This document shows, piece after piece, positions 33,552 to 51,900 of a stretch of 64,000 nucleotides of DNA. Below the pieces are notes generated by a model, which saw only the letters and a program-made list of their open reading frames with translations, was not told the DNA's origin and ran no database searches. Position 1 is the first letter of the stretch; each line of letters opens with the position of its first letter. Source of the stretch: Fibrobacterota bacterium. GTDB taxonomy: Bacteria; Fibrobacterota; Fibrobacteria; UBA11236. The DNA lies in assembly GCA_019509785.1 (NCBI GenBank), contig JAEKLQ010000069.1:1-64000 (forward strand), in the 5' to 3' direction. The position numbers were made by a program, and so were the translations under genes.

Positions 33552-36327
33552 AGCCCGAGAATTCCGAGCCCGCATCCGCGGGGACCTGGAGGCCTACGTC
33601 CGCCACGCCGAGACCGGACTGGCGCGCGGGCAGGAGGATGATATCCTCCGCATCGATCTGCATTGCCACGATCGCAATAGCGACGTGCCCGACGAGACCT
33701 TGGCCCGTATCCTGCGCGTACCGGAAACCTGGCTGCCCACCGCCAGGTTATTGCGTACGCTCAAGGCCAACGGGGCGGACGCCCTCACGGTGACCAACCA
33801 CAACAACGCCCGCAGCTGCTGGGAGGCCCGGGATCGCGACGTGGACATCCTGTCCGGCGCGGAGTTCAGTTGCACCCTGCCCGATCTGGACGTGGGCATC
33901 CACGTGCTGACCTACGGGTTCACGCCCGCGCAGGAAAGCAAGCTCATCCGCTTGCGCAAGAACTTGTACCGCTTCCTGGAGTTCACCACCGCCGAGGACA
34001 TCCCCACCGTGCTGGCGCATCCGCTCAACTTCTTCAGCCCCAAGGGCCTGCCCTCGCTGGAACTGATGGACCGCTTCGCCGTGCTCTTCGAGCGTTTCGA
34101 AGGCGTGAACGGCCAGCGCGACGGCTGGCAGAACGTATTGACCTTGGCCTGGATCGAGGGATTGGACGAGGAAGCCATCGAGCTCGCCGGCAAGCGCGTT
34201 GGCATCCGCCCGGACGCCTTCTGCCGCAGGCCTTATGCCAAGCGCCTCACGGGCGGATCGGATTGCCATTTCGGGATGTTCGCCGGATCTACGGGGACCT
34301 TGCTCAAGGTGCCCGGCTGGCGGTCGGAGCGAGGGAACCTGGCTCCGCTGGTATTGGAAGCGTTGCGGAACGGGGAATCGGCTCCCTACGGCGCCCACTG
34401 CGAGGAAGAGAAACTGAACGTCGCCTTCCTGGAATACTTCTGCCAATTCGCCCTGCATATGGAGGATCCCGGACTGCTGCGACTGCTACTGCACCGCGGC
34501 ACCACCGCCGAAAAGCTGCAGGCCCTGGCCCTCGCCAACGGCATGTTCGAACTCCGGCGCCATCGATATACGTCGCGCTTCCTAGGCCTGTTCCATGAGT
34601 GCCTGCAAGGCCGCAAGCCCGGATGGTTCGTCCAGATGATGGCGAGCCCGGCCTACAAGCCTTTGCTCGCCAAGATGGAGTCCATCGCCGCCGCGCGGGC
34701 GCACTCTCCCGAGCGCCTCGTGGCCGAATTGGGAACGGCCCTGCCCGGTATGGTCAACCAGCTCACGGCGCTGCTGACCGATCGGATCAAGGAGAAGGTG
34801 CGCAAGCTGGATGCCAGCGGGGCCAAGCCCGGCTTCGCCGAAATCCTGGGCAAGATCGAATTGCCCGTGCACGTGCGCGCCTTGTTCGGCCAAGAGCCTT
34901 CCACTCGGCCCAAGGATCAAAGCGGCGTTGACCTGGGGAAGGTGAGCGATGGCCTACCCTTCCCGGCCCTGGCGGCCGCCGCCTTATGCGGCTCCGCTTT
35001 CGCGGCGTCGAAAGTATTGTACGGCAAGCGCCCTTTCCTGGACGGCTTCGCCCGGCGCCTGGGCCGCTACGAGCATCCGCGCCGGGCCCTGTGGATCACC
35101 GACACCCTCGAGGATAAGAATGGCGTCTCCCACGTGCTCCAGGCCATGTTGGGCGAGGCCCGCCGCCGCGATCTGCCCATCGATTTCCTGGCCTGCGCCA
35201 CCGGCAAACCGGGCGGGCTGCAAACCGGATCGCATCTCACGCTCATGCCCGCGATCTCGGAATTCACCCTTCCCTTCTACGCCGATCAGGTCATCCGCCT
35301 GCCGGGCTTGCTGGATTTGCAGAAGGTCTTCCTGGAAGGGGGCTACGACCGCATCATCTGCTCGACCGAAGCTCCCATGGGCCTTTTGGCCCTTTACCTG
35401 AAGCATGCCTTCAACGTACCGGCCTATTTCTACACGCATTCGGACTGGCTCGACTTCGCGCGGCGCGTGCTGCGCTACGATAAGAAGAAGGTCGATCGCT
35501 TGCGCCGCTTCCTGCGGGCCTTCTACCGCCGCTTCGACGGCGTGTTCTTACTCAACGCGGAACAGCGCGACAGCTTCGCCTCTTCGGCCATGGGGCTCGC
35601 GCCCGATCGCTTGTACCTGACCGCGCATTGGGCCGATGCGCGCTTCCACCCGCGCGCGATCGGCGCGATCGAAAAGGCCGAAATCTTCCCGGGCCAAGGC
35701 CCCGTGCTCCTCTACGCGGGACGCTTGAGCGAAGAGAAAGGGGTGATGGATCTACCGGACATTTTCCGTAAGATCAAGGAACGGATCCCGGGCGCGCGGC
35801 TGGCCCTGGCGGGCACCGGGCCTTGCCTCGATCGTCTCAAGGCCGCACTACCCGAGGCGATCTTCCTGGGTTGGGTGGGTCCAGATCGATTGGCCGAGGC
35901 CTACTCCGCCGCCGATCTGCTCTTGCTCCCCTCGTGGTTCGACACGTTCTCCTGTTCGCTCTTGGAAGCCCTCGGCTGCGGGCTTCCCGCCCTGGCCTTC
36001 GACACCAAGGGCCCGCGGGACATCCTGGCGGGGGAGAGCGGAGGGCTGTTGGCGGAATCCCCTGCGCAGATGGCGGATCTGGCGGCGCGCCTATTGGAGG
36101 ATCCCGAACGGATGCGCATCCTCAAGACCCGTGCGCTGGAACGCGCGGCCGAGTATCGACCGGTACCGATCATGGACGGCATGTTGCGCGATCTGGGATT
36201 GTCGGAAACGGAACGGGTCGCACCGGCCCCCTCGCGGGGCCGGACCCGCAAGCCTCCGCGTGGGGAATCGGTTCCCTCGGGGGAGCCGGCCTTCCTGGGG
36301 GAATTGCTGGCCTTGATGGAAACCTGA
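33544..36327 (+). CDS. PHP-domain / GT4 glycosyltransferase fusion
   Basis: Residues about 35-260 are a PHP metal-dependent phosphoesterase domain with the expected metal ligands: DLHCHDRNSD, VTNHNNA, GAEFSC, LAHPLNFF and GGSDCHFG. A helical linker (about 270-470) follows. Residues about 510-890 form a family-4 glycosyltransferase: WITDTLEDKNGVSHVLQ near the start, YTHSDWLDFARR, LLYAGRLSEEKGVMDLPD, and the donor-site ESLLEALGCG-type segment (SCSLLEALGCGLPALAFDTK). The start at 33544 has AAAGGA seven bases upstream. The gene overlaps the glycosidase-like gene before it and sits beside the pst operon, divergently. No signal peptide is present, so it acts in the cytosol or at the inner membrane face. 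The substrate is unknown. Confidence 0.75.
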   Translation: MLEAREFRARIRGDLEAYVRHAETGLARGQEDDILRIDLHCHDRNSDVPDETLARILRVPETWLPTARLLRTLKANGADALTVTNHNNARSCWEARDRDVDILSGAEFSCTLPDLDVGIHVLTYGFTPAQESKLIRLRKNLYRFLEFTTAEDIPTVLAHPLNFFSPKGLPSLELMDRFAVLFERFEGVNGQRDGWQNVLTLAWIEGLDEEAIELAGKRVGIRPDAFCRRPYAKRLTGGSDCHFGMFAGSTGTLLKVPGWRSERGNLAPLVLEALRNGESAPYGAHCEEEKLNVAFLEYFCQFALHMEDPGLLRLLLHRGTTAEKLQALALANGMFELRRHRYTSRFLGLFHECLQGRKPGWFVQMMASPAYKPLLAKMESIAAARAHSPERLVAELGTALPGMVNQLTALLTDRIKEKVRKLDASGAKPGFAEILGKIELPVHVRALFGQEPSTRPKDQSGVDLGKVSDGLPFPALAAAALCGSAFAASKVLYGKRPFLDGFARRLGRYEHPRRALWITDTLEDKNGVSHVLQAMLGEARRRDLPIDFLACATGKPGGLQTGSHLTLMPAISEFTLPFYADQVIRLPGLLDLQKVFLEGGYDRIICSTEAPMGLLALYLKHAFNVPAYFYTHSDWLDFARRVLRYDKKKVDRLRRFLRAFYRRFDGVFLLNAEQRDSFASSAMGLAPDRLYLTAHWADARFHPRAIGAIEKAEIFPGQGPVLLYAGRLSEEKGVMDLPDIFRKIKERIPGARLALAGTGPCLDRLKAALPEAIFLGWVGPDRLAEAYSAADLLLLPSWFDTFSCSLLEALGCGLPALAFDTKGPRDILAGESGGLLAESPAQMADLAARLLEDPERMRILKTRALERAAEYRPVPIMDGMLRDLGLSETERVAPAPSRGRTRKPPRGESVPSGEPAFLGELLALMET

Positions 36328-37339
36328 AAACGGACACGCGATTCGTCGCTCCACGTTTCGTGGACCTGCATGTGCATCGGGACTTGCCCTGGGTCGGCGC
36401 CGCCTGGCGCCTTAGGGTCCAGGAATTCCGATTGGAATCTCTGGATCGCGTGGATGTTCCTTTCCCGACGGCTCCGGCGCGGATAGGCGAAGACGGTGCG
36501 GTGACGCCCGGCGTTTTCGGGGTCGCCTTCTACCGCACCTATCTGCTGCGACCCGCGAGGGCGCGGCGGGAGCTGTTCGCCTCCCTGGCGCGCTTCCGCC
36601 GCACGCTGGCATCCGCGGGCGCGCGCATCCTGGAAAGCCGTGCCGACCTGGAAGCGGGCGGTTACGATGACGGCCCAGTGCACCCTTCCCCGCACCGTCC
36701 CTCGTACGATGCAGTACAGGTTCCCGCCCACGGAGAAACCTTCCTGCTGTGCGTGGAATCCCTGCGTTACCTGCGGGATCCCATCGACGTGCGGCGACTC
36801 TGGGACCTGGGGGTGCGCTCGCTCCAGCCCATCCATTTCCTGGATACCTCCTGGGGCGGATCCTCGCGGGAGGGGTTCCTGCCGTCGGGCCGGGGCGGTC
36901 TGACGCCATTGGGTCGCGCCATGTTGGCCGAAATGGCCAAGGTGGGGATGATTTTGGATCTGGCGCATATGAACTCGCGTACGGCGCGGGAATGCCTGGA
37001 AGCCTATCCGGGGCCTGTCTTCTGTTCGCATACCGGTTTTTCGGGAGTGAAGCGTAGCGCGCGTAACCTGGATGCCATCCCGCGCGGGAGGCCTGGACGA
37101 GGGCCTTTTGCGCGACAGCCCATGCCCTGGCGGAGCTGGCCCCCGAAGGACGGACGCTGGTGGCGGTGGGATCGGACCGCGGCGCGCCCATCCAGGCGCC
37201 GTCTTGGTTCTTTTCGGCCGGGCATTTGGAGGAGATCGCCGCCGAACTGGTCCGAGGCGGATGGAGCGATGCGGAAGCCCAGGGGTTTCTGGCCGGGAAT
37301 GCTTTGGATTTCCTGCGGCGATCCCTGCCTATATCTTGA
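36324..37339 (+). pseudogene. Peptidase M19 (membrane dipeptidase) remnant with frameshift
   Basis: Downstream of the glycosyltransferase, one frame reads VDLHVHRDLPWVGAAWRL, CVESLRYLRDPIDVRRLW, GLTPLGRAMLAEMAKVGMIL, DLAHMNSRT and FCSHTGFSGVKRSARNLD, the metal-site motifs of renal dipeptidase family M19. At about 37071-37093 the frame changes: the C-terminal part (LVAVGSDRGAPIQ, EEIAAELVRGGWSDAEAQGF, GNALDFLRRSLPIS, stop at 37339) is in another frame. The usual segment between SHTG and GSD is also about 30 residues short, which suggests a deletion. No ATG start is in frame; CTG 36324 overlapping the upstream TGA or GTG 36360 are candidates. A sequencing or assembly error is an alternative to true decay. 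Confidence 0.6.
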
Positions 37340-37459
37340 ACGGATGACGCTCCAATCACTCGCCTCATGCTTAGCATACGGTTTGTGCCTAGATTTATTT
37401 TCGGGCCAATCGGGTTTCCGCTACCCACCCAACGAACTACTGCTAGGAGCCGCTAAAAT

Positions 37460-37810
37460 ATGCCCAATAGAATCCAGGTCCGTTGGATAGCCTGCACCTT
37501 GCCGCTTTGGCTTGCCTTGATGGGATGCGACCCATTGCGCGGAAGCGGGTGCACCTGCTCATTGGAAGACCGGGTCAACGTCTGCGCGAAAGGCAAATAC
37601 GATGGAATGGAATCCGTCTCCTACCGCCGGGAACGCGGCAACGGAGGGCTGGATAGCGTGTCTTCCGGCAGTCCGCGTTGTTTCGATGAGCTTTCCGGCA
37701 GGCAGCGCATCCTGGTTTACGAGAACGGCGCCCTCATCGATTCCTCGGCATGGTTCACCTTGCGGACGGTCGACTGCTGCCATGGGGAAGCCAAAACCGT
37801 CATTTTCTGA
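37460..37810 (+). CDS. Small Cys-rich lipoprotein
   Basis: The 116-residue product has a lipoprotein signal (PLWLALMGC, lipobox L-A-L-M-G-C at residue 23) and six further cysteines (GSGCTCS, NVCAKG, SPRCFD, VDCCHG), which may form disulfides in the periplasm. AGGAG lies about 12 bases before ATG 37460. The family is not recognised. It is preceded by the broken M19 gene and followed by a cluster of GGCGCGCC palindromes. Confidence 0.6.
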   Translation: MPNRIQVRWIACTLPLWLALMGCDPLRGSGCTCSLEDRVNVCAKGKYDGMESVSYRRERGNGGLDSVSSGSPRCFDELSGRQRILVYENGALIDSSAWFTLRTVDCCHGEAKTVIF

Positions 37811-37844: not shown

Positions 37845-37978
37845 TGGCGCGCCAATGGCGCTCCCGGGGAAGCTACTTTGGCGCGCCAAGGATTCGCATT
37901 GGCGAGCCACCGAGGCGCTTCATTTGCGATTTCTGAGCGCTACATTGGCGCGTCATCGGGGGCTACATTGGCGCGCCG
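37845..37978. repeat. Cluster of five TTGGCGCGCC-type palindromes
   Basis: TGGCGCGCCA (37845-37854), TTGGCGCGCCAA (37878-37889), TTGGCGAGCCA (37899-37909), TTGGCGCGTCA (37945-37955) and TTGGCGCGCC (37969-37978) lie within 134 bp. Two are preceded by GCTACA, one by GCTACT. The cluster occupies the gap between convergent genes and enters the last codons of the acylase gene. Confidence 0.7.
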
Positions 37979-40283
37979 CGCCCAGATCGACCACATGGGG
38001 AAACGCCAAGGTTACCCCCTCGGCGCTGAGCGGCAGACGCACGTAGCGCCGGCGCTTCCAATCCTCCCAGAGGTCCAGGCTGTTTTCCGAGAGTAGCCAC
38101 CCATCCTGGCCCCCCAACAAGGCGAACCAATTCCCGTCGGGGTCGGAGAGATCGGAAATGTGGCGGGCCACCGCGCCGTAGGTGACCGCGTGCGGGCCTG
38201 CCGAAACGGGATGCGCGGACTTGTGCACCGTCTGGGCCGAACCATCGGCAGGGGCGTCGTCGAATACGAAGAGGCGACCGATGGTAGGTAACGCGCGCAA
38301 TGGGTGCGCGGGCCGCAACCGGTGCAGGAGGCCCCAGGCGGGGCGCCTGCGCCAGGCGGAATAGGCCTTATCCACGCCCGCCTCCAGGGCCTCGAGCAAC
38401 TTGGGGCCGGGCTCCCGCGCCAGCTCTTCTTCCAAAACCCGATAGGCCGCCTCCGAGGCCAGCAGGTATTTGGCCAAGGCCTTCCCGTACCCGACCTCCA
38501 GATGCGGCAAGGCGAAATGGTATAGGATGAGTTGGAAGGCCGCCGCGCCCCGGGAGTTGGATTTGTAATCGCCGTCCCACTCCGCCAGGCACCGGAGCAT
38601 CATGGGTAGTCCGCTTTTCCCTCTAGCGGCCCCGCCACCGCGGGAGGCGGAAGTCTGCCCGATGCGCAGTGAAAGCAGATGGCGCAGCCGATCGCATGAG
38701 GATGAATGCACGTCGGCCTGTATGGCCTTGATCCTTTCCAGGCCCAATTCGCGGGTCCCAAGCAGCAAGGCCCGGATGCGCTCATGGCGGTCGCCGGGAG
38801 GGAAGAGATAACCGATGGGGAAGCCGGTATCGGCCGGCAGGTTGTTGGCCGAGACCACGCATCCATCGGCGGGATCGAACAAGCCCGGCAAGCCGGCGGA
38901 ATCGGCCAGGGATCGCCAGGCCCGATCGGAATCGGCGGGGGAAACCAGGAGATCGGCGGGGGCTCCCTGGCGCCGCCGCGGCAGGCGCACCGCCATCAAT
39001 TGCCCCACGTGCCCGTCGGCGTCTGCATATACCACGTTCATGCCAGACACCGCGTAGGTGGCGAAGGCGGCGCGGAACTCCTCCCAGCCGCGGGATCGGC
39101 TGGCGGCCAGGAAGGCGGAGATCTCGTCGCTGGGCGAATGGCCCATCCAGCGCAGGCATATGGGCGGCCCCCGGTAACGCGCAAGATACGGTGCGTCGCT
39201 GATGACCGGGCCGTAAGCGGTCTCGCGAAGGCGGGCCTCCACGGGAAACCAGCCGCGCACGCGTATGATCTCGCGCCGCTCGTTGAAGGCGGACGCGGGC
39301 AGTCCGCCTGCGTCCACGAGATCGCTGCTGGCGGCGTACATATTGGTCGCGCCCCAGGCCACGCGCGGATTGCGGCCCAGGCCCACGAAAGGCAAGCCCG
39401 GCAGCATCAGCCCGACCACATGGTAAGAGGGCGATTTATACCCCGCCAAAAGCCACATGTTCGGGAACATCACGCTTAGGTGCGGATCGCTGGCCAACCA
39501 AGCCTTGCCGTCGCGCGCGCGCGCCGCGAAGGAATTGCTGCCGCTCCGGATCATGCTGCCCAATAGCCGCGGCAGGTAGGCGTCCCAGCCTTCCGGCGTG
39601 AAACTGGCCGGCGAGGCATAGCCCAGTTCTAGGATGCTGCCCCAGACCGCGCGCCAGGCATGCGCGTCCCGCAGCCCAAGGATATCCATCCAAAGCACCC
39701 AGTTCACGTCGGCGCCGGCGAGGCGGGAAACCAGCAGCACGTCGTCCATGCTCCAATCGCGTACGGGAATGCGCAGCAGGGTGAACTCCAAGGGACGGCG
39801 GCGCATGCCGCGCTGATAGGTATTGACCCCGGCCACGTAGGCCTCGATCCAGGCGCGCGTTCCGGGCGGCAGCGAGGCGCGCATGCCCTCCAAGGCCTTC
39901 CCTAACCCGAGGCTGCGCAGGGAATGATCGAAAGCGACGGCCGAAGGGCCCAACAGTTCGGCCAGGCGGCCCTGGGACAGGCGGCGCGTGATCTCCATCT
40001 GTCCCAGGCGCAAATGCGCGTGCAGCGCCCCTAAGGCCACGGCCGCGTCCCGATCGGTTTCCGCCTCCACGAACGGGATCTGATGATCGTCGAAGCGCAC
40101 GCGCACAGGCTTTTCCAGGGGCAGCCCCGCGGTCGCGGCGATGAAATCGTCCAGGCGCGCGCGCAAGGAAACGCGCGGGCCGCGCAGGCGCCGCGGCAGG
40201 TCGAGCAAGCGCAGCAAGTGCGGCACGCCGATGACGATCAAGGCGGGAAACAATCTGGCCGCGCCGGCCAGCCATCGCCTCAA
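37953..40283 (-). CDS. Penicillin-acylase-type Ntn hydrolase
   Basis: This family (peptidase S45) hydrolyses amide bonds of acylated substrates such as beta-lactams, acyl-homoserine lactones and acyl-peptides. The protein is 776 residues. It has an N-terminal membrane anchor (LFPALIVIGVPHLLRLL), a short alpha domain starting FDDHQIPFVEAETDRDAAVA, and the self-cleavage site G-S-N-S-F, where the Ser before Asn becomes the catalytic nucleophile. Further family features are GLMLPGLPFVGLGRNPRVAW and VVSANNLPADTGF. The start is TTG 40283: GGAGG lies seven bases upstream and TTGA overlaps the PlsC-like stop. A much longer frame to 41057 reads low-complexity sequence and is rejected. It is the last gene of an OlsB-OlsA-acylase operon. 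Confidence 0.85.
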   Translation of the reverse strand: MRRWLAGAARLFPALIVIGVPHLLRLLDLPRRLRGPRVSLRARLDDFIAATAGLPLEKPVRVRFDDHQIPFVEAETDRDAAVALGALHAHLRLGQMEITRRLSQGRLAELLGPSAVAFDHSLRSLGLGKALEGMRASLPPGTRAWIEAYVAGVNTYQRGMRRRPLEFTLLRIPVRDWSMDDVLLVSRLAGADVNWVLWMDILGLRDAHAWRAVWGSILELGYASPASFTPEGWDAYLPRLLGSMIRSGSNSFAARARDGKAWLASDPHLSVMFPNMWLLAGYKSPSYHVVGLMLPGLPFVGLGRNPRVAWGATNMYAASSDLVDAGGLPASAFNERREIIRVRGWFPVEARLRETAYGPVISDAPYLARYRGPPICLRWMGHSPSDEISAFLAASRSRGWEEFRAAFATYAVSGMNVVYADADGHVGQLMAVRLPRRRQGAPADLLVSPADSDRAWRSLADSAGLPGLFDPADGCVVSANNLPADTGFPIGYLFPPGDRHERIRALLLGTRELGLERIKAIQADVHSSSCDRLRHLLSLRIGQTSASRGGGAARGKSGLPMMLRCLAEWDGDYKSNSRGAAAFQLILYHFALPHLEVGYGKALAKYLLASEAAYRVLEEELAREPGPKLLEALEAGVDKAYSAWRRRPAWGLLHRLRPAHPLRALPTIGRLFVFDDAPADGSAQTVHKSAHPVSAGPHAVTYGAVARHISDLSDPDGNWFALLGGQDGWLLSENSLDLWEDWKRRRYVRLPLSAEGVTLAFPHVVDLGAARQCSPR

Positions 40284-41125
40284 GCCAATGCCTCCGCCGC
40301 GCCCACCGCCCGCAAAGCCGCGGCGGCCCGGTCCGCGAGGGCGCCGGACCCCTCCAGGGCGTCCAGGCGTTCGGCCACCGCGGCGCGCAAAGCCGCCGCC
40401 AAGGCTTTCCGATCGGGATGGGTGACCGTTTCGGGCGCGAAAGAGAGATCGGCGCGCATGCCCGGCATGCGGAAGAGCGCCAGGAAATGAGGCAGGAATT
40501 CGGCTTCGCCCCACCAGGCCATGCTCAAGGCGGCGGGAGGATGCCCCTCGGGAGCGCGGTAGCGGAGGGCGGCGGCGTAGACCGGCAGGCCAGCGGCCGC
40601 GGGATACGCGAGCAGCGGAGAGCGGAACGGGCCGACCTCGAAACCCGGCGAGCTGGTGCCCTCGGGGAATACGACCAGGCCGCCGCCGGCGGCGAAATGG
40701 CCCGCCACCGAGCGGGACACGCGCTCGGCATCCCGTTGCGAGCCGCGGTCCACGTACAAGGTGCCCGCCAGGTTGGCCAAGAGCCCTAGGCCCGGCCAGC
40801 CCGCCACCTCCTTCTTGGAGACGAAGGTGACGGGGACCTGCGATGCCAGCACGGCGATGTCGAGATAGCCCAAATGATTGGCGACGAGATAGCAGGGAGG
40901 CCGGGGAGGGCGGCCATGCACGCGCAACTCCACGCCCAGGATCCGCAACACGCCCCGGCTCCACGCCTGCGTGAATTGGGCCGCCACCGCGGGCCGGGCG
41001 GACATGGGAACGGGAATCCGGCGGATCACCCAAGCGACTATGATTATCGCCGACCACGATACGAATGCGGCCAGCCGGGCCCCCGTTTCGGGAAGGCTCC
41101 GGCGGCGCGGGCGCGGGATTTTCAA
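40280..41125 (-). CDS. olsA: PlsC-family acyltransferase, candidate OlsA
   Basis: The 281-residue protein has an N-terminal span (FVSWSAIIIVAWVI) and the lysophospholipid-acyltransferase motifs: NHLGYLD (HX4D catalytic pair), YVDRGSQRD, and FPEGTSS. In ornithine-lipid synthesis OlsA adds the second, ester-linked chain to lyso-ornithine lipid made by OlsB. The partner gene directly upstream supports this over a role in phosphatidic acid synthesis, but both remain possible. The start is TTG 41125, overlapping the OlsB stop as TTGA; a longer frame to 41317 lies inside OlsB and is unlikely. Confidence 0.8.
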   Translation of the reverse strand: MKIPRPRRRSLPETGARLAAFVSWSAIIIVAWVIRRIPVPMSARPAVAAQFTQAWSRGVLRILGVELRVHGRPPRPPCYLVANHLGYLDIAVLASQVPVTFVSKKEVAGWPGLGLLANLAGTLYVDRGSQRDAERVSRSVAGHFAAGGGLVVFPEGTSSPGFEVGPFRSPLLAYPAAAGLPVYAAALRYRAPEGHPPAALSMAWWGEAEFLPHFLALFRMPGMRADLSFAPETVTHPDRKALAAALRAAVAERLDALEGSGALADRAAAALRAVGAAEALA

Positions 41126-41979
41126 ACCAGCATTTTCCGGTACACGCCCGCGGGCATTTCCTGGGTATCCACCATGACCAGGAAATCGATGGTCTTGAAG
41201 CGCCGGTCCAGCGCGGGCTCGCCGCATACCAATCCGCCCAGGTTTAAGTAACCCTGGAACAAGCGCGGGATCTCGGGACGTACGGCGTCGAGGACGGCGA
41301 TGGGCCCGGTCTCGCACAGGTATTCGGGCAATGGCAGGGCCCGCAGGGAAGGATGCATCAGATCGAGGGCGGCGAGATGGCGGAACAGGGCGATGCCTTC
41401 GGCCGGATCCTGGCTGGTGAGCGAGCAGCAGCCGAACAGGTAGCGCTTGCCGTTCCAGTCCATATAGCGCGCCAGGCCTTTCCAGAGCAATTGCAGAACG
41501 CGTCCGTTACGGTGTTCGCGGTGGATGCAGGCGCGTCCGACTTCGACGCAGCGGTTGGTGAATTCCTCCGGGAAGGCGGAGAGATCGAATTCCTGGGCGG
41601 AATAAAAACCCCCGCGCAAGGAAGCCATCGATCCGGTCTGGATGCGATAGGTTCCGACCGCTTGGCCGGTGGAACGGCGCTCCACCATCAGGTGATGGCA
41701 TTGCGCGTCGAATTCGTCCACGTCGCGATGGGTGCGGTAAGACGCGTCCAGGCCCTCGTTAAGCTCCAGGTTGTAGACCTCGAAGCGCAGTCGGCAGACG
41801 GCGTTCAGATCGCGTTGATCCTTCGCGAAGCGGAGCAGGTAATCGCCGGACTCCTGCAGCAAAGGCGGAATGCCGCCCGCGTTGCAGGGATAGTTCCGGA
41901 GCGCTATCGGCAACGCCTCGGGCTCCGCGGGCGCGGAAGCGGGCAAGTCGATGGGCTTTTGCGTCAAGATGGTTTCCAT
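41122..41979 (-). CDS. olsB: OlsB-type ornithine N-acyltransferase (GNAT family)
   Basis: OlsB links a 3-hydroxyacyl chain from acyl carrier protein to the alpha-amino group of ornithine, the first step to phosphate-free ornithine lipids. The family pattern (PF13444) is clear: VCRLRFEVYNLELNEGL, DVDEFDAQCHHLMV, VGTYRI, CVEVGRACIHREHRNG, LLWKGLARYM and YLFGCCSLTS. The 285-residue protein has no signal peptide. ATG 41979 has AAGGGG upstream; a longer frame to 42183 reads non-conserved sequence. It is the first gene of the operon with olsA and the acylase. Related N-acyltransferases use other amino acids (Gly, Gln, Lys), so ornithine is the likely but not certain acceptor. Confidence 0.85.
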   Translation of the reverse strand: METILTQKPIDLPASAPAEPEALPIALRNYPCNAGGIPPLLQESGDYLLRFAKDQRDLNAVCRLRFEVYNLELNEGLDASYRTHRDVDEFDAQCHHLMVERRSTGQAVGTYRIQTGSMASLRGGFYSAQEFDLSAFPEEFTNRCVEVGRACIHREHRNGRVLQLLWKGLARYMDWNGKRYLFGCCSLTSQDPAEGIALFRHLAALDLMHPSLRALPLPEYLCETGPIAVLDAVRPEIPRLFQGYLNLGGLVCGEPALDRRFKTIDFLVMVDTQEMPAGVYRKMLV

Positions 41980-42785: not shown

Positions 42786-45023
42786 ATGTCCCAACATCCC
42801 ACCCTGTTGCCCGGCGATGCCCGTTACATCGATCGCGATTTCTCATGGCTCGCTTTCAACCGCCGCGTGCTCGCGGAGGCGCGCGCCGCTGAAAACCCCC
42901 TGCTGGAGCGGCTCAAGTTCCTTTCCATCGTAGCCAATAACCTCGATGAATTCTTCGAGGTGCGCGTAGCGGGATTATTGCAGAAGGTGGAATCGGGCGT
43001 GCCCGTCGACGGAATCGCCGCGCTCGACTGCCGCGAGAAGCTGATGGGCCTTTTGCGGGTGGTGCATGCCATGGTGGCCCAGCAATACCGGTGCTGGAAC
43101 GATGAACTGATCCCGGAGCTGCGCGCCAAGGGACTGCACATCTTGGGCCAAGCGGAATTGGGCCCCGCCGATATCTCCGAGCTGCGGCTCCGCTTCCAAC
43201 GGGAGATTTACCCCCTCCTCACGCCCATCAAGGTCGATCCCGCGCATCCCTTCCCCTGGGTGCTCAACAAGGCCCTGTGCCTGGGCGTCTGGCTGGAGGA
43301 AGAGGGCCCAGTCGCCCGCGGCGGCCTGGGCGTTGTCGCCATCCCCAGGGCCTTGCCGCGCGTGCTGCCTTTGCCGGCCCAAGGCAAGGGCCACCGCTAC
43401 GTATTCATCTACGACGTCATCAAGCTTTTCCTGGGGGAATTGTTCCGCGGTTACCGCATCCGCGGTTGCGCCAGTTTCCGGGTGACGCGCAACAGCAACC
43501 TCTACCTCAACGAGGACGCCAGCAATCTGCTGGAAACGGTGGAGACGGTGGTGCACAATCGCCGCAAGGGCAACGTGGTCCGCCTGGAGATCGAAGAGGA
43601 AACGCCCGCGCGCATTCGCCGCGGCTTGATGGAAACCTTCGACCTGGAGCCGGAACTGGTGTTCAGCGCGCCCGGCCCCGTCAACCTCAACCGCCTGATG
43701 GGCCTGTACCAGATGGCGCCCATGGGCGAATTGAAGTTCCCTCCGCATGTGCCTAAGCCCGTATTCCTGGGCCGCGAGCCGCAGGACATCTTCGCGCGCC
43801 TGCGCGGGCGCGACGTGATGCTCCATCATCCCTTCGAATCCTACGATCCCGTGGTCGAGTTCATCCGCGCCGCCGCCCGCGATCCCGACGTGCTTTGCAT
43901 CAAGCAGACCCTCTACCGTACCAGCGCCGAATCGCCCGTCATGTACGCCCTCCTGGAGGCCGCGGAGCAAGGCAAGGAAGTGACCGCCGTGGTGGAACTG
44001 CAAGCCCGCTTCGACGAAAAGTCCAACATCCAATGGGCCCGGCAACTCCAGGACAAGGGCGGCACCGTCGTGTACGGGCTGGTGGGCCTCAAGACCCATT
44101 GCAAGCTGGCGCTGATACTGCGCCGCGAATCCGGCGCGGGCTCGGAGGGCCGCATCCGCGAATACGCCCACGTGGGCACGGGCAATTACCATCCCGGCAC
44201 CGCGCGGCTCTATACCGACCTCAGCCTATTCACCGCCGAACCCACCCTCGTCTCCGACATCGCTTCGGTGTTCAATTACCTTACCTCGCATTCCCGTACG
44301 CCAACGTTCGCGCGCGCCCTGGTAGGGCCGATCAATTTCCTGGAAGAGACGTTGCGGCTCATCCGGGAGGAAGAGAAGAACGCCCGCGAAGGCCGGCCCG
44401 CGGCCATCGACGCCAAGATGAATGCCCTCATCGATCGCGAAGTCATCGAAGCCCTCTATTCCGCCTCGCAGGCCGGCGTGCGCATCCGCCTGTTGGTGCG
44501 CGGCATTTGCGCCCTGCGGCCCGGGGTGAAGGGCATGAGCGAGAACGTGGAAGTGCGCAGCATCCTGGGTCGGTTCCTGGAGCATAGCCGCATCTTCCGC
44601 TTCGCCAACGGGGGCGACTCCGTCCATTTCATCGGCAGCGGCGATTGGATGACGCGGAATTTGCGCGAGCGGGTGGAAGTGATCGTACCCATCGCCGATC
44701 CGGAGATCAAAGCGCGCCTGGACGAGATCCTGCGCGTGTATTGGGAGGACACCGCCAAAGCCCTGGTGATGCATCCGGGCGGAGGCTTCGCACGGGTGGC
44801 CTCCCGAGATGCCGGTGCGCGCGAGGGCAAAGATCGTTTCGAGGCGCAGGCCTGGCTCATGATGCATCCCGAAAGCCTGCCCTCGGAAAACCGGGCGGAA
44901 GAACGGGCGGAAAAGCACGAGGAAGCGCGGCCGGAAAACCAGCCGCCGGTCCCGGGAATGATCGCCCTGCCCGGCGCGCAAGGCCTGCCGGAGAGGTCCG
45001 CCAAAGCCTATATTGGGTCCTGA
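42786..45023 (+). CDS. ppk1: Polyphosphate kinase 1, first copy
   Basis: PPK1 makes polyphosphate reversibly from ATP through a phosphohistidine. The 745-residue protein has the N domain (YIDRDFSWLAFNRRVL, NNLDEFFEVRVAGLLQ), the head domain and the two C-terminal catalytic domains: KQTLYRTSAESPVMYALLEA, ELQARFDEKSNIQWARQL, GLKTHCKL with the predicted phospho-acceptor His438, AHVGTGNYHPGTARLYTDLS and FLEHSRIF with His600. All residues needed for activity appear present. GGAG lies eleven bases before the ATG. Its stop overlaps the sixA start by one base (TGATG). A paralogue lies two genes downstream. Confidence 0.96.
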   Translation: MSQHPTLLPGDARYIDRDFSWLAFNRRVLAEARAAENPLLERLKFLSIVANNLDEFFEVRVAGLLQKVESGVPVDGIAALDCREKLMGLLRVVHAMVAQQYRCWNDELIPELRAKGLHILGQAELGPADISELRLRFQREIYPLLTPIKVDPAHPFPWVLNKALCLGVWLEEEGPVARGGLGVVAIPRALPRVLPLPAQGKGHRYVFIYDVIKLFLGELFRGYRIRGCASFRVTRNSNLYLNEDASNLLETVETVVHNRRKGNVVRLEIEEETPARIRRGLMETFDLEPELVFSAPGPVNLNRLMGLYQMAPMGELKFPPHVPKPVFLGREPQDIFARLRGRDVMLHHPFESYDPVVEFIRAAARDPDVLCIKQTLYRTSAESPVMYALLEAAEQGKEVTAVVELQARFDEKSNIQWARQLQDKGGTVVYGLVGLKTHCKLALILRRESGAGSEGRIREYAHVGTGNYHPGTARLYTDLSLFTAEPTLVSDIASVFNYLTSHSRTPTFARALVGPINFLEETLRLIREEEKNAREGRPAAIDAKMNALIDREVIEALYSASQAGVRIRLLVRGICALRPGVKGMSENVEVRSILGRFLEHSRIFRFANGGDSVHFIGSGDWMTRNLRERVEVIVPIADPEIKARLDEILRVYWEDTAKALVMHPGGGFARVASRDAGAREGKDRFEAQAWLMMHPESLPSENRAEERAEKHEEARPENQPPVPGMIALPGAQGLPERSAKAYIGS

Positions 45024-45529
45024 TGGACCTGCTACTGGTGCGCCATGGCTTGGCGGGCAAAGCCGATCCCGAAGTTTGGCCGGATGATGATCTGCGCCCT
45101 TTGACTCCGAAGGGCCGTAAGGCTTTCAAGGCCGCCGCAAAAGGGTTGAAGCGCGCCGGACCCTTCCCCTCCCTGATCCTGACCAGCCCGTCCCTGCGTA
45201 CGCGCGAGACCGCCGTCATCCTGGCCAAGGTCTTGGGATTGGGCGGACGCAGGCTCAAGGATTGGGACGCCCTGCATCACGGACACTCGCCGGAGAAGGC
45301 CCTCTCGCTCCTAGCGCGGCAACGGCTGCCGAAGATGGCCGCCTTGGTGGGCCACGAGCCCTGGCTGGGGGAATTCCTATCGCTCCTGATCTGCGGCCGA
45401 GCGGATGCGGGCTTAGGGTTCGAGAAGGGCGGGGCGGCTTGGGTGGAGATCCCGCCGAGTGGAAAAGCCAAAGGGCGCGGCCGTCTGCATTGGCTGCTGA
45501 CCCAGGACCAACTCGCGACCTTGGGATGA
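45023..45529 (+). CDS. sixA: SixA-type histidine phosphatase
   Basis: The 168-residue protein has the RHG motif at its N-terminus (LLLVRHGLAG), the LTPKGRKAFKAAAKGL segment, SPSLRTRETA and the second catalytic histidine in ALVGHEPWLGEFLS. SixA dephosphorylates phosphohistidine in phosphotransfer proteins. Placed between polyphosphate genes, it could act on phosphohistidine proteins or on a polyphosphate-related substrate. ATG 45023 shares its A with the ppk1 stop. A longer frame starting at 44645 is not supported. Confidence 0.9.
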   Translation: MDLLLVRHGLAGKADPEVWPDDDLRPLTPKGRKAFKAAAKGLKRAGPFPSLILTSPSLRTRETAVILAKVLGLGGRRLKDWDALHHGHSPEKALSLLARQRLPKMAALVGHEPWLGEFLSLLICGRADAGLGFEKGGAAWVEIPPSGKAKGRGRLHWLLTQDQLATLG

Positions 45530-45580
45530 TGCGATGAAAGGATGCGGGGAAACGCGCGCGCGAATAGGTAGAATGGGATC

Positions 45581-46552
45581 ATGCTGATCCGCATCGTCGA
45601 CATAGGCAGCAACTCGGTCAAATCCTCCGTCTACGCGGTCGAGAAACAGGACCATAAGCTGCTGGCCAAGGACAAGCTCCCCTTCTCCCTGGGGGAAGAG
45701 GTATTCGCGACCGGGAACATCACGGAGTCCGCCCAGGACAAGGTGGCGCGCTTCATTTCCGATCTGCCGGACGCGGTGGGCGGGGTCAAGGTGCACTTCA
45801 CTTTCATTCTGGCGACGTCGGCGGTACGCTCGGCGCGCAACAAGGAAGCCTTCGCGCGCCGCGTCGAGGCCAAGACCGGCACCGCGCTCCGCATCCTCAG
45901 CGGCGACGAAGAATCCTTCCTCATCCATATGGGGATCGCCAGCACCGCCGATGCGGGCAATAACGAGATCATCAAGACCATCGATATCGGCGGGGGCAGC
46001 GCCGAAATCAGCTGGAGCCGCGGCTTCGAGTACCTGGCGGGCCACAGTTTCGATCTGGGCGCCATCCGCCTGGCCCAGCGCTTCCTGAAGGGGAAGACCT
46101 TTTCGCGCGAGAGCTACGAACTCATCTACGAGCACTGCAAGCAGGAATTCAAGACGCGTTACTCCCTGATCGCCCCGCCGCCTTCGCAACGCGCCTTCGG
46201 CAGCTCGGGCAACCTGCGCGCCATCCAGCGCATGGTCCAAAACGTACGCGGCGGCCCTTTCCTCAAGCTCATGCCCGAAATCACCATCGGCAGCCTGGAG
46301 GACGTGGCCGAACTGGCCATGGGCAAATCGGCCCAAGGCCTGCAAAGCCTGTTCGACATTTCCCTGGACCGGGCGCGCATCATCATGCCGGCCGTAGTGG
46401 TGCTGGCCGCCAGCATGCGCTGGTTCGGCATCCCGCGGCTGTCCGTGAGCGAAGCCGGGCTTCGCGAAGGCGCGGCTTATTGGTGGAGCCGTCACGGGCA
46501 TCTCAACCTTCCCTTCGAAGCCGCCGCCCACGAGCCGGCGGAGAAACGCTGA
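45581..46552 (+). CDS. ppx: Ppx/GppA-type exopolyphosphatase
   Basis: This ASKHA-fold enzyme releases phosphate from polyphosphate ends or converts pppGpp to ppGpp. It has RIVDIGSNSVKSSVYAV (phosphate-1 loop), a VKVHFTFILATSAVRSARNK segment, ILSGDEESFLIHMGI, and TIDIGGGSAEISW (phosphate-2 loop) with FDLGAIRLAQRF. At 323 residues it is the short form without a C-terminal HD domain. It starts 51 bp after sixA, and its TGA overlaps the start of the second ppk1 (TGATG), so synthesis and breakdown of polyphosphate are co-expressed. Confidence 0.92.
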   Translation: MLIRIVDIGSNSVKSSVYAVEKQDHKLLAKDKLPFSLGEEVFATGNITESAQDKVARFISDLPDAVGGVKVHFTFILATSAVRSARNKEAFARRVEAKTGTALRILSGDEESFLIHMGIASTADAGNNEIIKTIDIGGGSAEISWSRGFEYLAGHSFDLGAIRLAQRFLKGKTFSRESYELIYEHCKQEFKTRYSLIAPPPSQRAFGSSGNLRAIQRMVQNVRGGPFLKLMPEITIGSLEDVAELAMGKSAQGLQSLFDISLDRARIIMPAVVVLAASMRWFGIPRLSVSEAGLREGAAYWWSRHGHLNLPFEAAAHEPAEKR

Positions 46553-48834
46553 TGGACTCCCAAGCGCCTGGGACAGCGGCCCCGCCGCCGAATGCGGGTC
46601 CCGTCCAGAACGGGACGGCCAGGAACGAGACCGCGGCCAATGGAACCAGACCTGTTCCCGCCTCTGCCGCCGCTCCCGCCGTTCCCGATTACCAGGGCAA
46701 AAACGCCTTCATCGATCGCGAGCTGTCCTGGCTCGAGTTCAACCAACGCGTGCTGGAAGAAGCCCAGGACCCGGCCAATCCCCTCTTGGAACGCATCCGC
46801 TTCCTGGCCATCGCCGCCAACAACCTGGACGAGTTTTTCGAGGTGCGCGTCGCCCGCCTTTTGCAAATGGTGGAATCGGGCGTACCCGTCGACGGCATCG
46901 CCGGCCTCGACACCGCGGCCAAGCTGGAGGCCATCCTCAGGGCCTGCCATAAATCGGTGAAGTCGCAATTCAAATGCTGGAACGAGGAGCTGCTGCCCCG
47001 CCTGAGCGAGCACAACGTTCACGTGAAAACCATGGCCTCGCTGGGCAAGGAAGAGGAAAAGCAGGTGCACGCGTATTTCCGCAAGGAAATCTATCCACTG
47101 CTCACCCCTATCAAGGTCGATCCCGCCCATCCTTTCCCCTGGGTGCTCAACAAGGCGCTGTGCCTGTTGGCCCTGCTCAAGGAAGATAAGCGACGCGAGG
47201 TCCTCGGCGTAGTCACCATTCCCCGCAGCCTGCCGCGGCTCATCAACGTGCCCGTCAAGGAAAAAGGCTGGAGCTTCCTTTTCATCCACGACGTGGTGCA
47301 GCATTACCTGCAGGAACTCTTCAGGGGCTACGTCATCCGCGCCAGCACGCCCTTCCGTTGCACGCGCAACAGCAACCTCTACGCCGAGGACGAGGAGGCG
47401 GGCAGCCTCATCGACGCGGTCGAGGCGGTGGTCCTGAACCGTCGCCGCGGGGACGTCGTACGCCTGGAGATCGACAAGAACGCCTCCAAGCGCATGATCG
47501 ATACCCTGGTGCGCATCTTCGACGTGGAAGCGGGGCAGATCTTCAAGGTGGACGGCCCGGTGAACCTCAACCGCCTGGCCAGCCTCTACAACATGATCCC
47601 GCTCGCCCATCTCAAGTACCCTCCTTTGCATCCCAGCCACGCCACCCATTTCGCCGAACCCGAGGATATCTTCCACGAGATGCGCCAACGCGACATCCTG
47701 TTGCATCATCCATTCGACTCGTACGATCCCGTGGTCGGCTTCATCCAGGCGGCGGCCGGCGATCCCCGCGTGGCGGTGATCAAACAGACCCTGTACCGCA
47801 CCAACCAGGATTCGCCCGTCATGTACGCCTTGCAGGAGGCCGCGGAGCAGGGCAAGGAAGTGATCGCGGTGGTGGAGTTGAAGGCCCGCTTCGACGAGAA
47901 GTCGAACATCCAATGGGCGCGGCAGCTGGAGGAAAAAGGCGGAACCGTCGTGTACGGGCTGGTGGGCCTGAAAACCCATTGCAAGCTCTCGCTCGCTATC
48001 CGCAAGGAGGATACCGGTTTCGTCAGCTACGCCCACGTGGGCACGGGCAATTACAATCCCGAGACCGCGCGCAGCTACACCGATCTGAGCATGCTGACCA
48101 GCGATCCCGAGATTACCGGAGGCGTATCCGAGGTCTTCAATTTCCTGACCTCGCATTCGCGGCCCGAATTCCAGGGCCTCCAGGTGGGCCCGGTCAATTT
48201 CCTCTCCGAGACCTTGCGCCGCATCCGCATCGAAGCCGATGCCGCCCGCGCCGGCAAGCCCGCCGCCATCACCGCCAAGATGAATTCCCTGTTGGACAAG
48301 GAAGTGATCGAGGCCCTATATGAAGCCTCCCGGGCCGGCGTGGCCATCCGCTTGATAGTGCGCGGGACCTGCGCCTTGCGGCCGGGGGCGAAGGGATTCT
48401 CCGAGAACATCCAGGTGAAAAGCGTGGTGGGCCGCTTCCTGGAGCATAGCCGCATCTTCCACTTCCGGAACGAAGCGGGGAACGCGCCGGCGGTCTTCAT
48501 CGGCAGCGGCGATTGGATGGAACGCAACCTGCGCGAACGCGTGGAAGTGGCCATCCCCATCAAGGATGCCGCCTTGGTACGCCAGATCGAAGACATCCTC
48601 ACCTTGTATTGGGCCGATACCGCCAAGTCCCGTTGGATGCGCGCCGACGGGGCCTATACGCGCGCCGCCCCGGCTCCCCAGGCGGGCGAAGGGTTGTTCA
48701 ATACGCAGGAATGGCTGGTCCGCCGGGCCGAGAGCCCCGACGCCCCCTTTCCCGCCGTCCCCCGCATTTTCCCCGATCGCGTTCCCCCCGCCGATCGCGC
48801 TTCCGAGGCCGATAGCCTCGAACCCTCCCGTTGA
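46552..48834 (+). CDS. ppk1: Polyphosphate kinase 1, second copy
   Basis: The 760-residue protein is a full-length PPK1 closely related to the first copy: FIDRELSWLEFNQRVLEEAQ, NNLDEFFEVRVARLLQ, KQTLYRTNQDSPVMYALQEA, GLKTHCKL with predicted phospho-acceptor His476, AHVGTGNYNPETARSYTDLS and FLEHSRIF with His632. A 50-residue Ala/Pro/Asn-rich lead not found in the first copy precedes the conserved part. The start at ATG 46552 overlaps the ppx stop; a longer frame to 46480 lies inside ppx. Two intact PPK1 genes in one operon suggest different direction, timing or partners. Confidence 0.95.
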   Translation: MDSQAPGTAAPPPNAGPVQNGTARNETAANGTRPVPASAAAPAVPDYQGKNAFIDRELSWLEFNQRVLEEAQDPANPLLERIRFLAIAANNLDEFFEVRVARLLQMVESGVPVDGIAGLDTAAKLEAILRACHKSVKSQFKCWNEELLPRLSEHNVHVKTMASLGKEEEKQVHAYFRKEIYPLLTPIKVDPAHPFPWVLNKALCLLALLKEDKRREVLGVVTIPRSLPRLINVPVKEKGWSFLFIHDVVQHYLQELFRGYVIRASTPFRCTRNSNLYAEDEEAGSLIDAVEAVVLNRRRGDVVRLEIDKNASKRMIDTLVRIFDVEAGQIFKVDGPVNLNRLASLYNMIPLAHLKYPPLHPSHATHFAEPEDIFHEMRQRDILLHHPFDSYDPVVGFIQAAAGDPRVAVIKQTLYRTNQDSPVMYALQEAAEQGKEVIAVVELKARFDEKSNIQWARQLEEKGGTVVYGLVGLKTHCKLSLAIRKEDTGFVSYAHVGTGNYNPETARSYTDLSMLTSDPEITGGVSEVFNFLTSHSRPEFQGLQVGPVNFLSETLRRIRIEADAARAGKPAAITAKMNSLLDKEVIEALYEASRAGVAIRLIVRGTCALRPGAKGFSENIQVKSVVGRFLEHSRIFHFRNEAGNAPAVFIGSGDWMERNLRERVEVAIPIKDAALVRQIEDILTLYWADTAKSRWMRADGAYTRAAPAPQAGEGLFNTQEWLVRRAESPDAPFPAVPRIFPDRVPPADRASEADSLEPSR

Positions 48835-48948: not shown

Positions 48949-51900
48949 ATGGAAAAAGTCCCAATCCGGAAAATCACTTGCGCGTTCGTCCTGGTTTCAT
49001 GCCTGGCTTCCATCGCGCGCGCCGAAGGCATCGACTTCGAAAGCGCCGCCTATACGACCGATAAGACCCTCGTTGGCGCGGACGGCTGGGTCCTTACCGC
49101 CACCGATCCGCTCTCCGCCCAGGACGACTTCAAGATCCAGGCCGGCCTCGCGGGCGAAGGCCGCTGGGCGCACGCCCAAAGCGCCGGCGCCGCCAGCATC
49201 TACCGGTCCCTCGGGAATTCGTCCAGTACAACCACCCTCGACATGCGCTGGCGTTGGCGCGGCCTTAGCGACAGCGCCCATTTCTGCGTGGGCATCTCCG
49301 GCAGCTCCGGATCCGCCCGCCAATCCAACCGCGCCCTGGCCTGCATGGAACCCTTCGGCGCCATTTCCGCGCAAGGCGCTTCGGCGCTGCCCCTTTCCAG
49401 CCTGGAAGGCTGGCGCAAAGGCGCCTGGCTCTATATGCGGCTGGCGCTGGATGCGTCTTCGGGTATCTATGGCAAATTCACCCTTTACGTTTCCGACGAT
49501 TCCCTGCGAGCCTCCGAACGGGTCGCCGTCACCACGTCCATGGGCGGTAGCGGATCCCTGGCGCGCATCGTCCTACGGCAGGAGGCCGGAAGCGGGTTCG
49601 TCGATCTGGACGATTTCTCCTGGCAGCCGGTCGCCACCTGGCAGCCTCCCACGGTCGCCGACACGACGTGGAGCAGCGGCAAGAATTGGAGCACCGGTTC
49701 CCCGCCGGACAGCAATACCCGCGTCCACTTCCCCGATGGCGAAGCGCACGGCTGCCTCCTGGATCGAAACGCAACCGTGCTTTCCGTCACGGTCGCTTCC
49801 GGATATCTCGGGACGTTCAACCTGGGCGCGCAAACCTTGTCCGTCCTGGAAAACGCCGATTTCACCGGCGGCGCGGTAGCGACCGCCGCGGGGAAAATCC
49901 GGTTTCCCGGAGCGCGGTCCTCATCTTTGATCAGCCCCTCGGGCAGCCGCTCATTGCCCGCCTTGCGGCATGACGGTTCCGGGCTGGTACGCTTAGACGG
50001 CCGGGCTCTTTCGGTGGGGGACCTGACGCAATCGGGGGGGAGCTTCGACTTCAATGGCTTCGATCTCATCGTGGCCGGTGCCTGGCAGGTGACCTCGGGG
50101 CGGCCCGGAACCTTGCGCAACTTGGAAGGGCGTTCCGTCATCGTCACCCATGGGGCCCATCTGGAAGGCGCCGCGCCGGATACCTTGCTCGGCCTGGCGT
50201 CCTCGCCCAAAGGCTGGACCTTGAACTCGTCCGGGATCGATTCCTTGACGGCCCGTTATGCCCTGCTGGGCAACGTGCGCTCCACCGGCAATACCGGTTA
50301 TGCATACCGGAGCAGCGATGCGGGCGGGAATACGGGCTGGATCTTCTTCAACGTTCCCGCCATCGCCGTCCAGCCGCGGGACACCACCTTGCGCCCCGGG
50401 GAAACGGCTTCCTTCCGGATCTCGCTGGCTTCCGCGGCGGGCGCTACCTTCCAATGGCTGCGCAACGACGTGGAGATAGCCGGCGCGCGTGATTCCGTAT
50501 ACACGCTGACGGGCCTGCGCAAAGCCGATAGCGGCGCGGTGTTCACCTGCAAGGCCACGAACCCGGCGGGTTACGTCTTCTCACGTTCCGCCATCTTGAA
50601 AGTGGTCTTCCCCGCCCCCACCTCGACCCCGGCGCCGCAAACCCTTTTGGATTCGCTATCCGTTCGCTTAGCCTCCGTCGCGCCGGGAGCCCGCATCGTC
50701 TATTCCGCGAACGGCGGGCCCTGGCAAGCTTATGCATCCGCCTTGGTCTTGCGCGATTCCACCGTGCTCAGGGCCTTCGCGGTGCTCGGGCCGGACACCT
50801 CCGCCTTGGCGACCTTGGCCTTCCCCAAGGCTTCCTTGCCGATCTTGCCCGCCCCCGGCATCCAACCCGAGGCCTCCGCCTTCGCCGACAGCGTAAGCGT
50901 GACCCTGGCGCCCCCGGTGGCCGGAGCCCGCGTCTATTACACCCTGGACGGCGGCGATCCCGATAGCCTATCGCATGCCTATCTCGGCCCCTTCACCTTG
51001 AAGGCCACGACTACGGTGCGCGCCATCGCCTACCTGGCGGGATATCGTCCCAGCCCCGTGGCCACCCGCCTGTTCACCTGGCAAGGCTCGCAAGTCTTGC
51101 CGCCGCCAACGGCGATGCCCCCTGGCGGGGATTTCTCCGATTCCGTCGTGGTCCATTTGCTGCCGCCGGCCGGATTCCCGGATGCGGCCGTATACTGGCT
51201 GACCGAGCCCGCGGGGACCGGGCTTTCCCCGTCCGCCGGCCCGGCCAAATACTCCGACTCCCTGGTGATCCGGGGGACGTGCATGCTTAAGGCCCTGGCG
51301 ATTTCCGGCTCCCGCGCGAGCGATACCGCCCGGTGGCAATTCCACCGGCGCCTGGGCGCGCCGACCGTAACTCCCAAGGGACGTATCTTCCATGATACCC
51401 TCCGCATCGCGTCCTCGGCCGATTCCGGCGCCGCGGTGCGCTATACCGTGGACGGAACCGATCCCGTCGCCGCCTCCCCGCTCTTCCCCGCCCAGGGCAT
51501 CCGGCTGGATTCCACCGTAGTCTTGAAGGCGATCGCGGTGAAAGGAACCGAAACGAGCGCCGCCATCGCGGAAACCTATACCCTGGTGCCGGACACACCG
51601 CAGGTTTCGCCCAGCGGGGGCGACTACAGTTCCCCCATCCGAATCGTCCTCTCTTCCTCGTCCTCGCGCGCCGTCCTCTATTACACCCTGGACGGCAGCA
51701 CGCCCGGGCCGGAGCGGGGATTACCGCCTTATTCCGGCCCCATCGACCTGGACAGCAATGCCACCTTGAAGGTCGTGGCCGTGGCCGGATCGGGAGGCGG
51801 CGGCAGCGGCGGGCCGATCCGCATCGAGAACTACACCTTTATCGCGACGGGCAATCGCAGCTTGGCCCCGGGCCAACGCCTTTCCTTGTCCGGCAATTAC

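Follow-up and report, generated by a model that had tools for sequence, protein, structure and literature searches.

What does an enzyme of the penicillin-acylase family do at the end of an operon whose other two genes resemble those for ornithine lipid synthesis? The question is raised by a 64,000-nucleotide stretch of DNA (the window) from a soil-type bacterium of the Fibrobacterota. We observed that olsB-like, olsA-like and PF01804-type genes follow each other in that order on the minus strand, from 41979 down to 37953 (gene order, strand and coordinates were checked, and the families assigned with Pfam). The olsB-like gene (41122..41979, ATG start, 285 aa) encodes a PF13444 N-acyltransferase (Pfam E 6.3e-32), the olsA-like gene (40280..41125, TTG start, 281 aa) a PF01553 O-acyltransferase (9.2e-17), and the third gene (37953..40283, TTG start, 776 aa) a PF01804 acylase, that is, an Ntn hydrolase (1.1e-137). 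At each junction the TGA stop codon overlaps the TTG start of the next gene, and the resulting four-base TTGA overlaps lie on the minus strand at 41122..41125 (olsB/olsA) and 40280..40283 (olsA/acylase). The initial annotation, made from the sequence of the window, had described three genes joined by two such overlaps, and it was right in genes, order, strand and coordinates.

The acylase gene is convergent to a diverged gene for an M19 membrane-dipeptidase-like protein (36327-37490, plus strand). Divergent from the operon, at 42786-48834 (plus strand), histidine-phosphatase and Ppx/GppA genes are flanked by two polyphosphate kinase genes. This set of genes fits phosphate physiology; a Pho-box search found no box at the ols-acylase operon, and its one weak match in the whole window was far away and below chance expectation. 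Further along (48949-53859, plus strand) lies a gene for a 1636-residue protein, probably secreted or on the surface, in which chitobiase C-terminal-like and Fn3-associated domains are repeated.

The first two products were compared with the NCBIfam models, where the best names were ornithine N-acyltransferase (OlsB) for the first and lyso-ornithine lipid O-acyltransferase (OlsA) for the second. The olsB-like protein reached 136.1 and 120.4 bits against OlsB models with cut-offs of 350 and 320, and the olsA-like protein 145.1 and 119.3 bits against two models with cut-offs of 300, so that all scores stayed well under the equivalog cut-offs. This is expected, since the host phylum is distant. 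The olsB-like gene has the PF13444 domain and the adjoining olsA by which an OlsB is recognized, and its protein has residues that are invariant across the Fibrobacterota. The olsA-like protein carries the HxxxxD and EGT motifs of PF01553, seen in its translation as NHLGYLD and FPEGTS. We therefore regard the first product as an OlsB homologue with ornithine as its putative substrate. In the OlsBA pathway of the Sinorhizobium/Rhodobacter/Brucella type, homologous N- and O-acyltransferase genes are adjacent and stand in the same order as in the window. The window differs from that pathway in the scores of its proteins and in the acylase gene that follows.

The initial annotation had proposed a search for the same three-gene order in other genomes. 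Among 168 Fibrobacterota genomes, orthologues of the acylase were found in only two others, G159 (72% identity) and G157 (71%), both of the same genus as the window genome (G000). Both keep the three genes in this order, and TTGA recurs at both junctions (loci L039 in G159 and L040 in G157); the conservation of TTGA at both places indicates that the gene overlaps are more than chance. A single-sequence genome scan with the acylase as the query gave no match. The three genomes have common flanks, with a glycosyltransferase gene and the M19-peptidase-like gene on one side and a polyphosphate kinase gene on the other. Within the genus, acylase and olsBA are both present in G000, G157 and G159, and both absent in G156, where the interval between these flanks is filled by unrelated genes, and in G158, where the flanking genes are gone too. 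In G155, the olsBA contig stops directly behind olsA and the contig carrying the other flank breaks off in the peptidase gene, so that the place of the acylase falls in an assembly gap. Two sister-genus genomes and several more distant Fibrobacterota have olsBA without the acylase. The M19-like gene stays with the acylase in G157 and G159, is present with olsBA in G155, and is absent from G156 along with the ols genes; the arrangement with two polyphosphate kinases is partly kept in G156, G157 and G159. We considered whether the trio moves as one mobile cassette and set this aside, as G158 is also without the flanking genes and simple loss or replacement explains the pattern equally well.

We further examined the best 80 OlsB loci from about 85,000 genomes, a sample rich in Streptomyces and Verrucomicrobiota. 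They included loci of two related Fibrobacterota MAGs, RYN_348 and Chersky_265. Most of the 80 had an olsA-like gene, and only RYN_348 had a PF01804 gene within the fetched flank. The Chersky_265 locus is the G155 contig that ends after olsA, which leaves 78 other OlsB loci, and none of these had an acylase beside olsBA. The idea that an olsBA-acylase linkage is frequent across many phyla was rejected on this count, which indicates that the arrangement is local to the genus.

When we looked for the acylase itself outside the Fibrobacterota, a different neighbour appeared. A plasmid of the alphaproteobacterium Indioceanicola profundi encodes a protein 42% identical to the window acylase over 94% of its length, with a GH3 gene 14 bases downstream. 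With a profile built from six sequences, the subfamily was detected in 53 of 367 alphaproteobacterial genomes; members outside the Fibrobacterota are 35-47% identical to the window acylase. The only carriers in the Myxococcota were two genomes, both located by way of an OlsB that shares about 50% identity with that of the window; of 572 other genomes sampled in the phyla of the myxobacterial carriers, none passed the threshold for the subfamily. As scoring in the myxobacterial and alphaproteobacterial scans covered the top 2-5 candidates of each genome, absence there is not absolute. A same-strand GH3 gene lies directly downstream of the acylase in 28 of the 55 alphaproteobacterial loci and in 30 of all 59 loci outside the Fibrobacterota, with a 4-base overlap in five pairs; about half of the subfamily loci have neither GH3 nor olsBA alongside. 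When all neighbours were clustered, GH3 was the dominant recurrent family, and any other was found at six loci at most. The GH3 label changes 7 times on the acylase tree, compared with 20.9 times in shuffles; a supported clade (98/99) with 23 of the 29 GH3-linked rows also takes in the three Fibrobacterota acylases. In three alphaproteobacterial loci (L227, L229 and L231) some 360-430 bases separate the acylase and GH3 genes, and a small extra gene may fit there. At another locus (L183, genome G1073), the acylase-GH3 pair is near genes for an MlaF-like ABC ATPase and a lipoprotein resembling a lipid-transport component.

The GH3 neighbour is informative because of OlsH, a GH3-like enzyme of Singulisphaera acidiphila that is unrelated in sequence to OlsB and that uses ATP to join a free fatty acid to ornithine, giving N-acyl-ornithine in the first step of ornithine lipid synthesis (PMC12493201, 2025). 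The 20 acylase-linked GH3 proteins tested scored 488-610 bits against the NCBIfam OlsH model NF052613, under its cut-off of 620, and three bacterial GH3 proteins that do not lie beside an acylase scored 250-430 bits. We thus call these neighbours OlsH-like and not certified OlsH. The OlsH-OlsI pathway (PMC12493201) resembles the alphaproteobacterial loci in this enzyme; the paper describing it is silent on any penicillin acylase, and the window has OlsB in place of GH3. Each of the 44 acylase-bearing alphaproteobacterial genomes searched had a PF13444 protein, with a best E of 4e-22 or lower; this co-occurrence, counted among carriers of the acylase, may partly be a class effect. The 20 PF13444 proteins inspected were all full-length OlsB homologues, and an olsA-like gene adjoined 16 of them. 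By its gene neighbourhoods, a single subfamily of acylases is linked with both OlsB and OlsH-like enzymes, two unrelated types that are predicted to build the same kind of amide bond. The initial annotation had made its proposal depend on linkage of the acylase to olsBA elsewhere; this linkage extends to one genus only, which speaks against the proposal, and the linkage to a gene of the OlsH kind is widespread, which speaks for it.

These linkages suggest a place for the acylase in amino-lipid metabolism, and they leave some room for a substrate other than an ornithine lipid. The acylase could act on the N-acyl derivative of another amino acid (glycine, serine, lysine, glutamine and so on), or it could serve as a transferase and pass the acyl chain on to a different amine; penicillin acylases can work in the synthetic direction. 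As the scores of the GH3 neighbours fall slightly short of the OlsH cut-off, their amino acid may not be ornithine, and other GH3 homologues are expected to use other amino acids (PMC12493201). The distance of the window OlsB and OlsA from their equivalog cut-offs points the same way. However, the GH3 neighbours match the OlsH model far better than the three other bacterial GH3 proteins do, and the OlsB-type genes of the carriers usually adjoin olsA, as they do for ornithine lipids. We consider this reading rather unlikely, though the strongest of the alternatives.

The window acylase matches PF01804 with 461 bits (gathering cut-off 21.3) through residues 59-757, covering positions 1-673 of the 675 in the profile, and is therefore full length. 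An alignment showed that G248-S249-N250, H268, N480 and R499 are invariant in 27 relatives. Following the usual PF01804 pattern, we take S249 to be the Ntn serine nucleophile, H268 the His/Gln23-like residue, N480 the oxyanion Asn and R499 the conserved Arg. The initial annotation had called this protein a membrane-anchored Ntn hydrolase with a G-S-N autocatalytic site. The enzyme class and the G-S-N motif held, and the anchor was not confirmed: for the three Fibrobacterota orthologues the highest hydropathy over 19 residues near the N-terminus was 1.78, 0.70 and 1.83, which is weak, and all three are without a lipobox. A strict lipobox is present in 32 of the 59 relatives elsewhere. A structure model of the acylase, a two-sequence prediction with a mean pLDDT of 31.6, was set aside. 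All ten genomes of the family to which the window genome belongs also encode another PF01804 protein (G000:C59 57032-59251 in the window genome), which has a hydrophobic segment near its N-terminus; it is about 30% identical to the window acylase and falls in a separate subfamily.

Searching the solved structures with the subfamily profile gave D-succinylase (8e-83) and glutaryl-7-ACA acylase (1.5e-55) as the best matches, and PvdQ was matched as well. No NCBIfam model matches the window acylase; this includes the PvdQ/AHL acylase model NF051460 (cut-off 950), to which two relatives scored 25-39 bits. Compared with the known PF01804 acylases (D-succinylase, glutaryl-7-ACA acylase, penicillin G acylase and PvdQ), the protein thus has the full-length family match and the same nucleophile motif, but it belongs to a separate subfamily linked to amino-lipid genes. 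The match to PvdQ and the frequent lipobox, which marks many members as exported lipoproteins, would suit a prodrug-type maturation, in which an N-acylated small molecule is made inside, exported, and then freed of its fatty acid by a periplasmic acylase, the part played by PvdQ in pyoverdine synthesis. Other PF01804 proteins, such as RenL, do occur in natural-product clusters. Such a role appears improbable here, as no peptide synthetase or transporter recurs among the neighbours, where families other than GH3 reach six loci at most, and the OlsA in the operon indicates a membrane lipid with a second chain. Equally improbable is an acylase directed at outside compounds (acyl-homoserine lactones, lipopeptides or beta-lactams), with its place after olsBA incidental to lipid metabolism: the family includes quorum-quenching and antibiotic acylases, and membrane lipids might merely be co-regulated with envelope defence, but chance is hard to invoke for overlapping genes and for a subfamily linked independently with N-acyl-amino-acid-forming enzymes of two unrelated kinds, and the initial annotation's own alternative of host or rival acyl-amides is weakened with it.

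We favour, with a probability of about 0.55, the reading that the operon makes and also takes apart or remodels ornithine-type amino lipids, with the acylase as an extracytoplasmic amidase acting on the ornithine lipid or its lyso form. OlsB would acylate ornithine at its alpha-amino group with a 3-hydroxy fatty acid, and OlsA would esterify a second fatty acid onto it. The acylase, most likely outside the cytoplasm, would then hydrolyse the N-acyl amide, in either the lyso-lipid or the complete lipid, and so return ornithine together with the hydroxy fatty acid (or an acyloxyacyl acid). Judging from the lipobox present in most of the relatives, the acylase would meet its substrate outside the cytoplasm, which is less certain for the window acylase with its weakly hydrophobic N-terminus; with OlsB, OlsA and OlsH inside, a futile cycle would be avoided. 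We infer the substrate, the hydrolytic direction, the compartment and the physiological purpose from genomic linkage. Operons that combine lipid-degrading and lipid-making enzymes have a precedent in phosphate-driven lipid remodelling, where plcP occurs with a glycosyltransferase.

A more tentative extension, which we think doubtful as yet, is a deacylation-reacylation cycle in which the exported acylase removes the amide-bound hydroxy fatty acid and the OlsH-like or OlsB neighbour adds a chain again. The fatty acid set free could be re-used by the OlsH-like ligase, an enzyme of a kind that needs free fatty acid.

In the literature searched, we found no described bacterial enzyme that cleaves the amide bond of ornithine lipids and no paper linking a penicillin acylase to these lipids; where 'ornithine lipid' and 'acylase' occurred together, the acylase was OlsB itself. 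Subscription journals were mostly outside this search and an earlier description is possible, so that within this scope the initial annotation's remark, that it knew of no description of such a turnover step, still stands. In macrophages, the N-acylethanolamine acid amidase has been proposed to free the 3-hydroxy fatty acid from lyso-ornithine lipid (PMC12710885), which makes the reaction chemically reasonable. The host enzyme, suggested from expression and metabolites, is however mammalian and lysosomal, of another family and outside any bacterial pathway (PMC12710885).

Together, the olsBA linkage in the Fibrobacterota, the olsH-like GH3 genes in the alphaproteobacteria and the OlsB-type gene in every carrier searched there support a link to ornithine lipid metabolism beyond the data from which it was first proposed. 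The proposal as a whole is partly supported, and by genomic linkage it is better supported than could be known from the window. By one estimate, about half of bacterial species contain ornithine lipids (PMC12493201). The acylase subfamily is a concrete candidate for their turnover or remodelling, as an enzyme so far undescribed. If the cycle holds, bacteria could exchange chains or head groups on their phosphorus-free membrane lipids, much as the Lands cycle does for phospholipids. If the amidase role is true, it would give a function to 'penicillin acylase family proteins' that are otherwise annotated as antibiotic or quorum-sensing enzymes.
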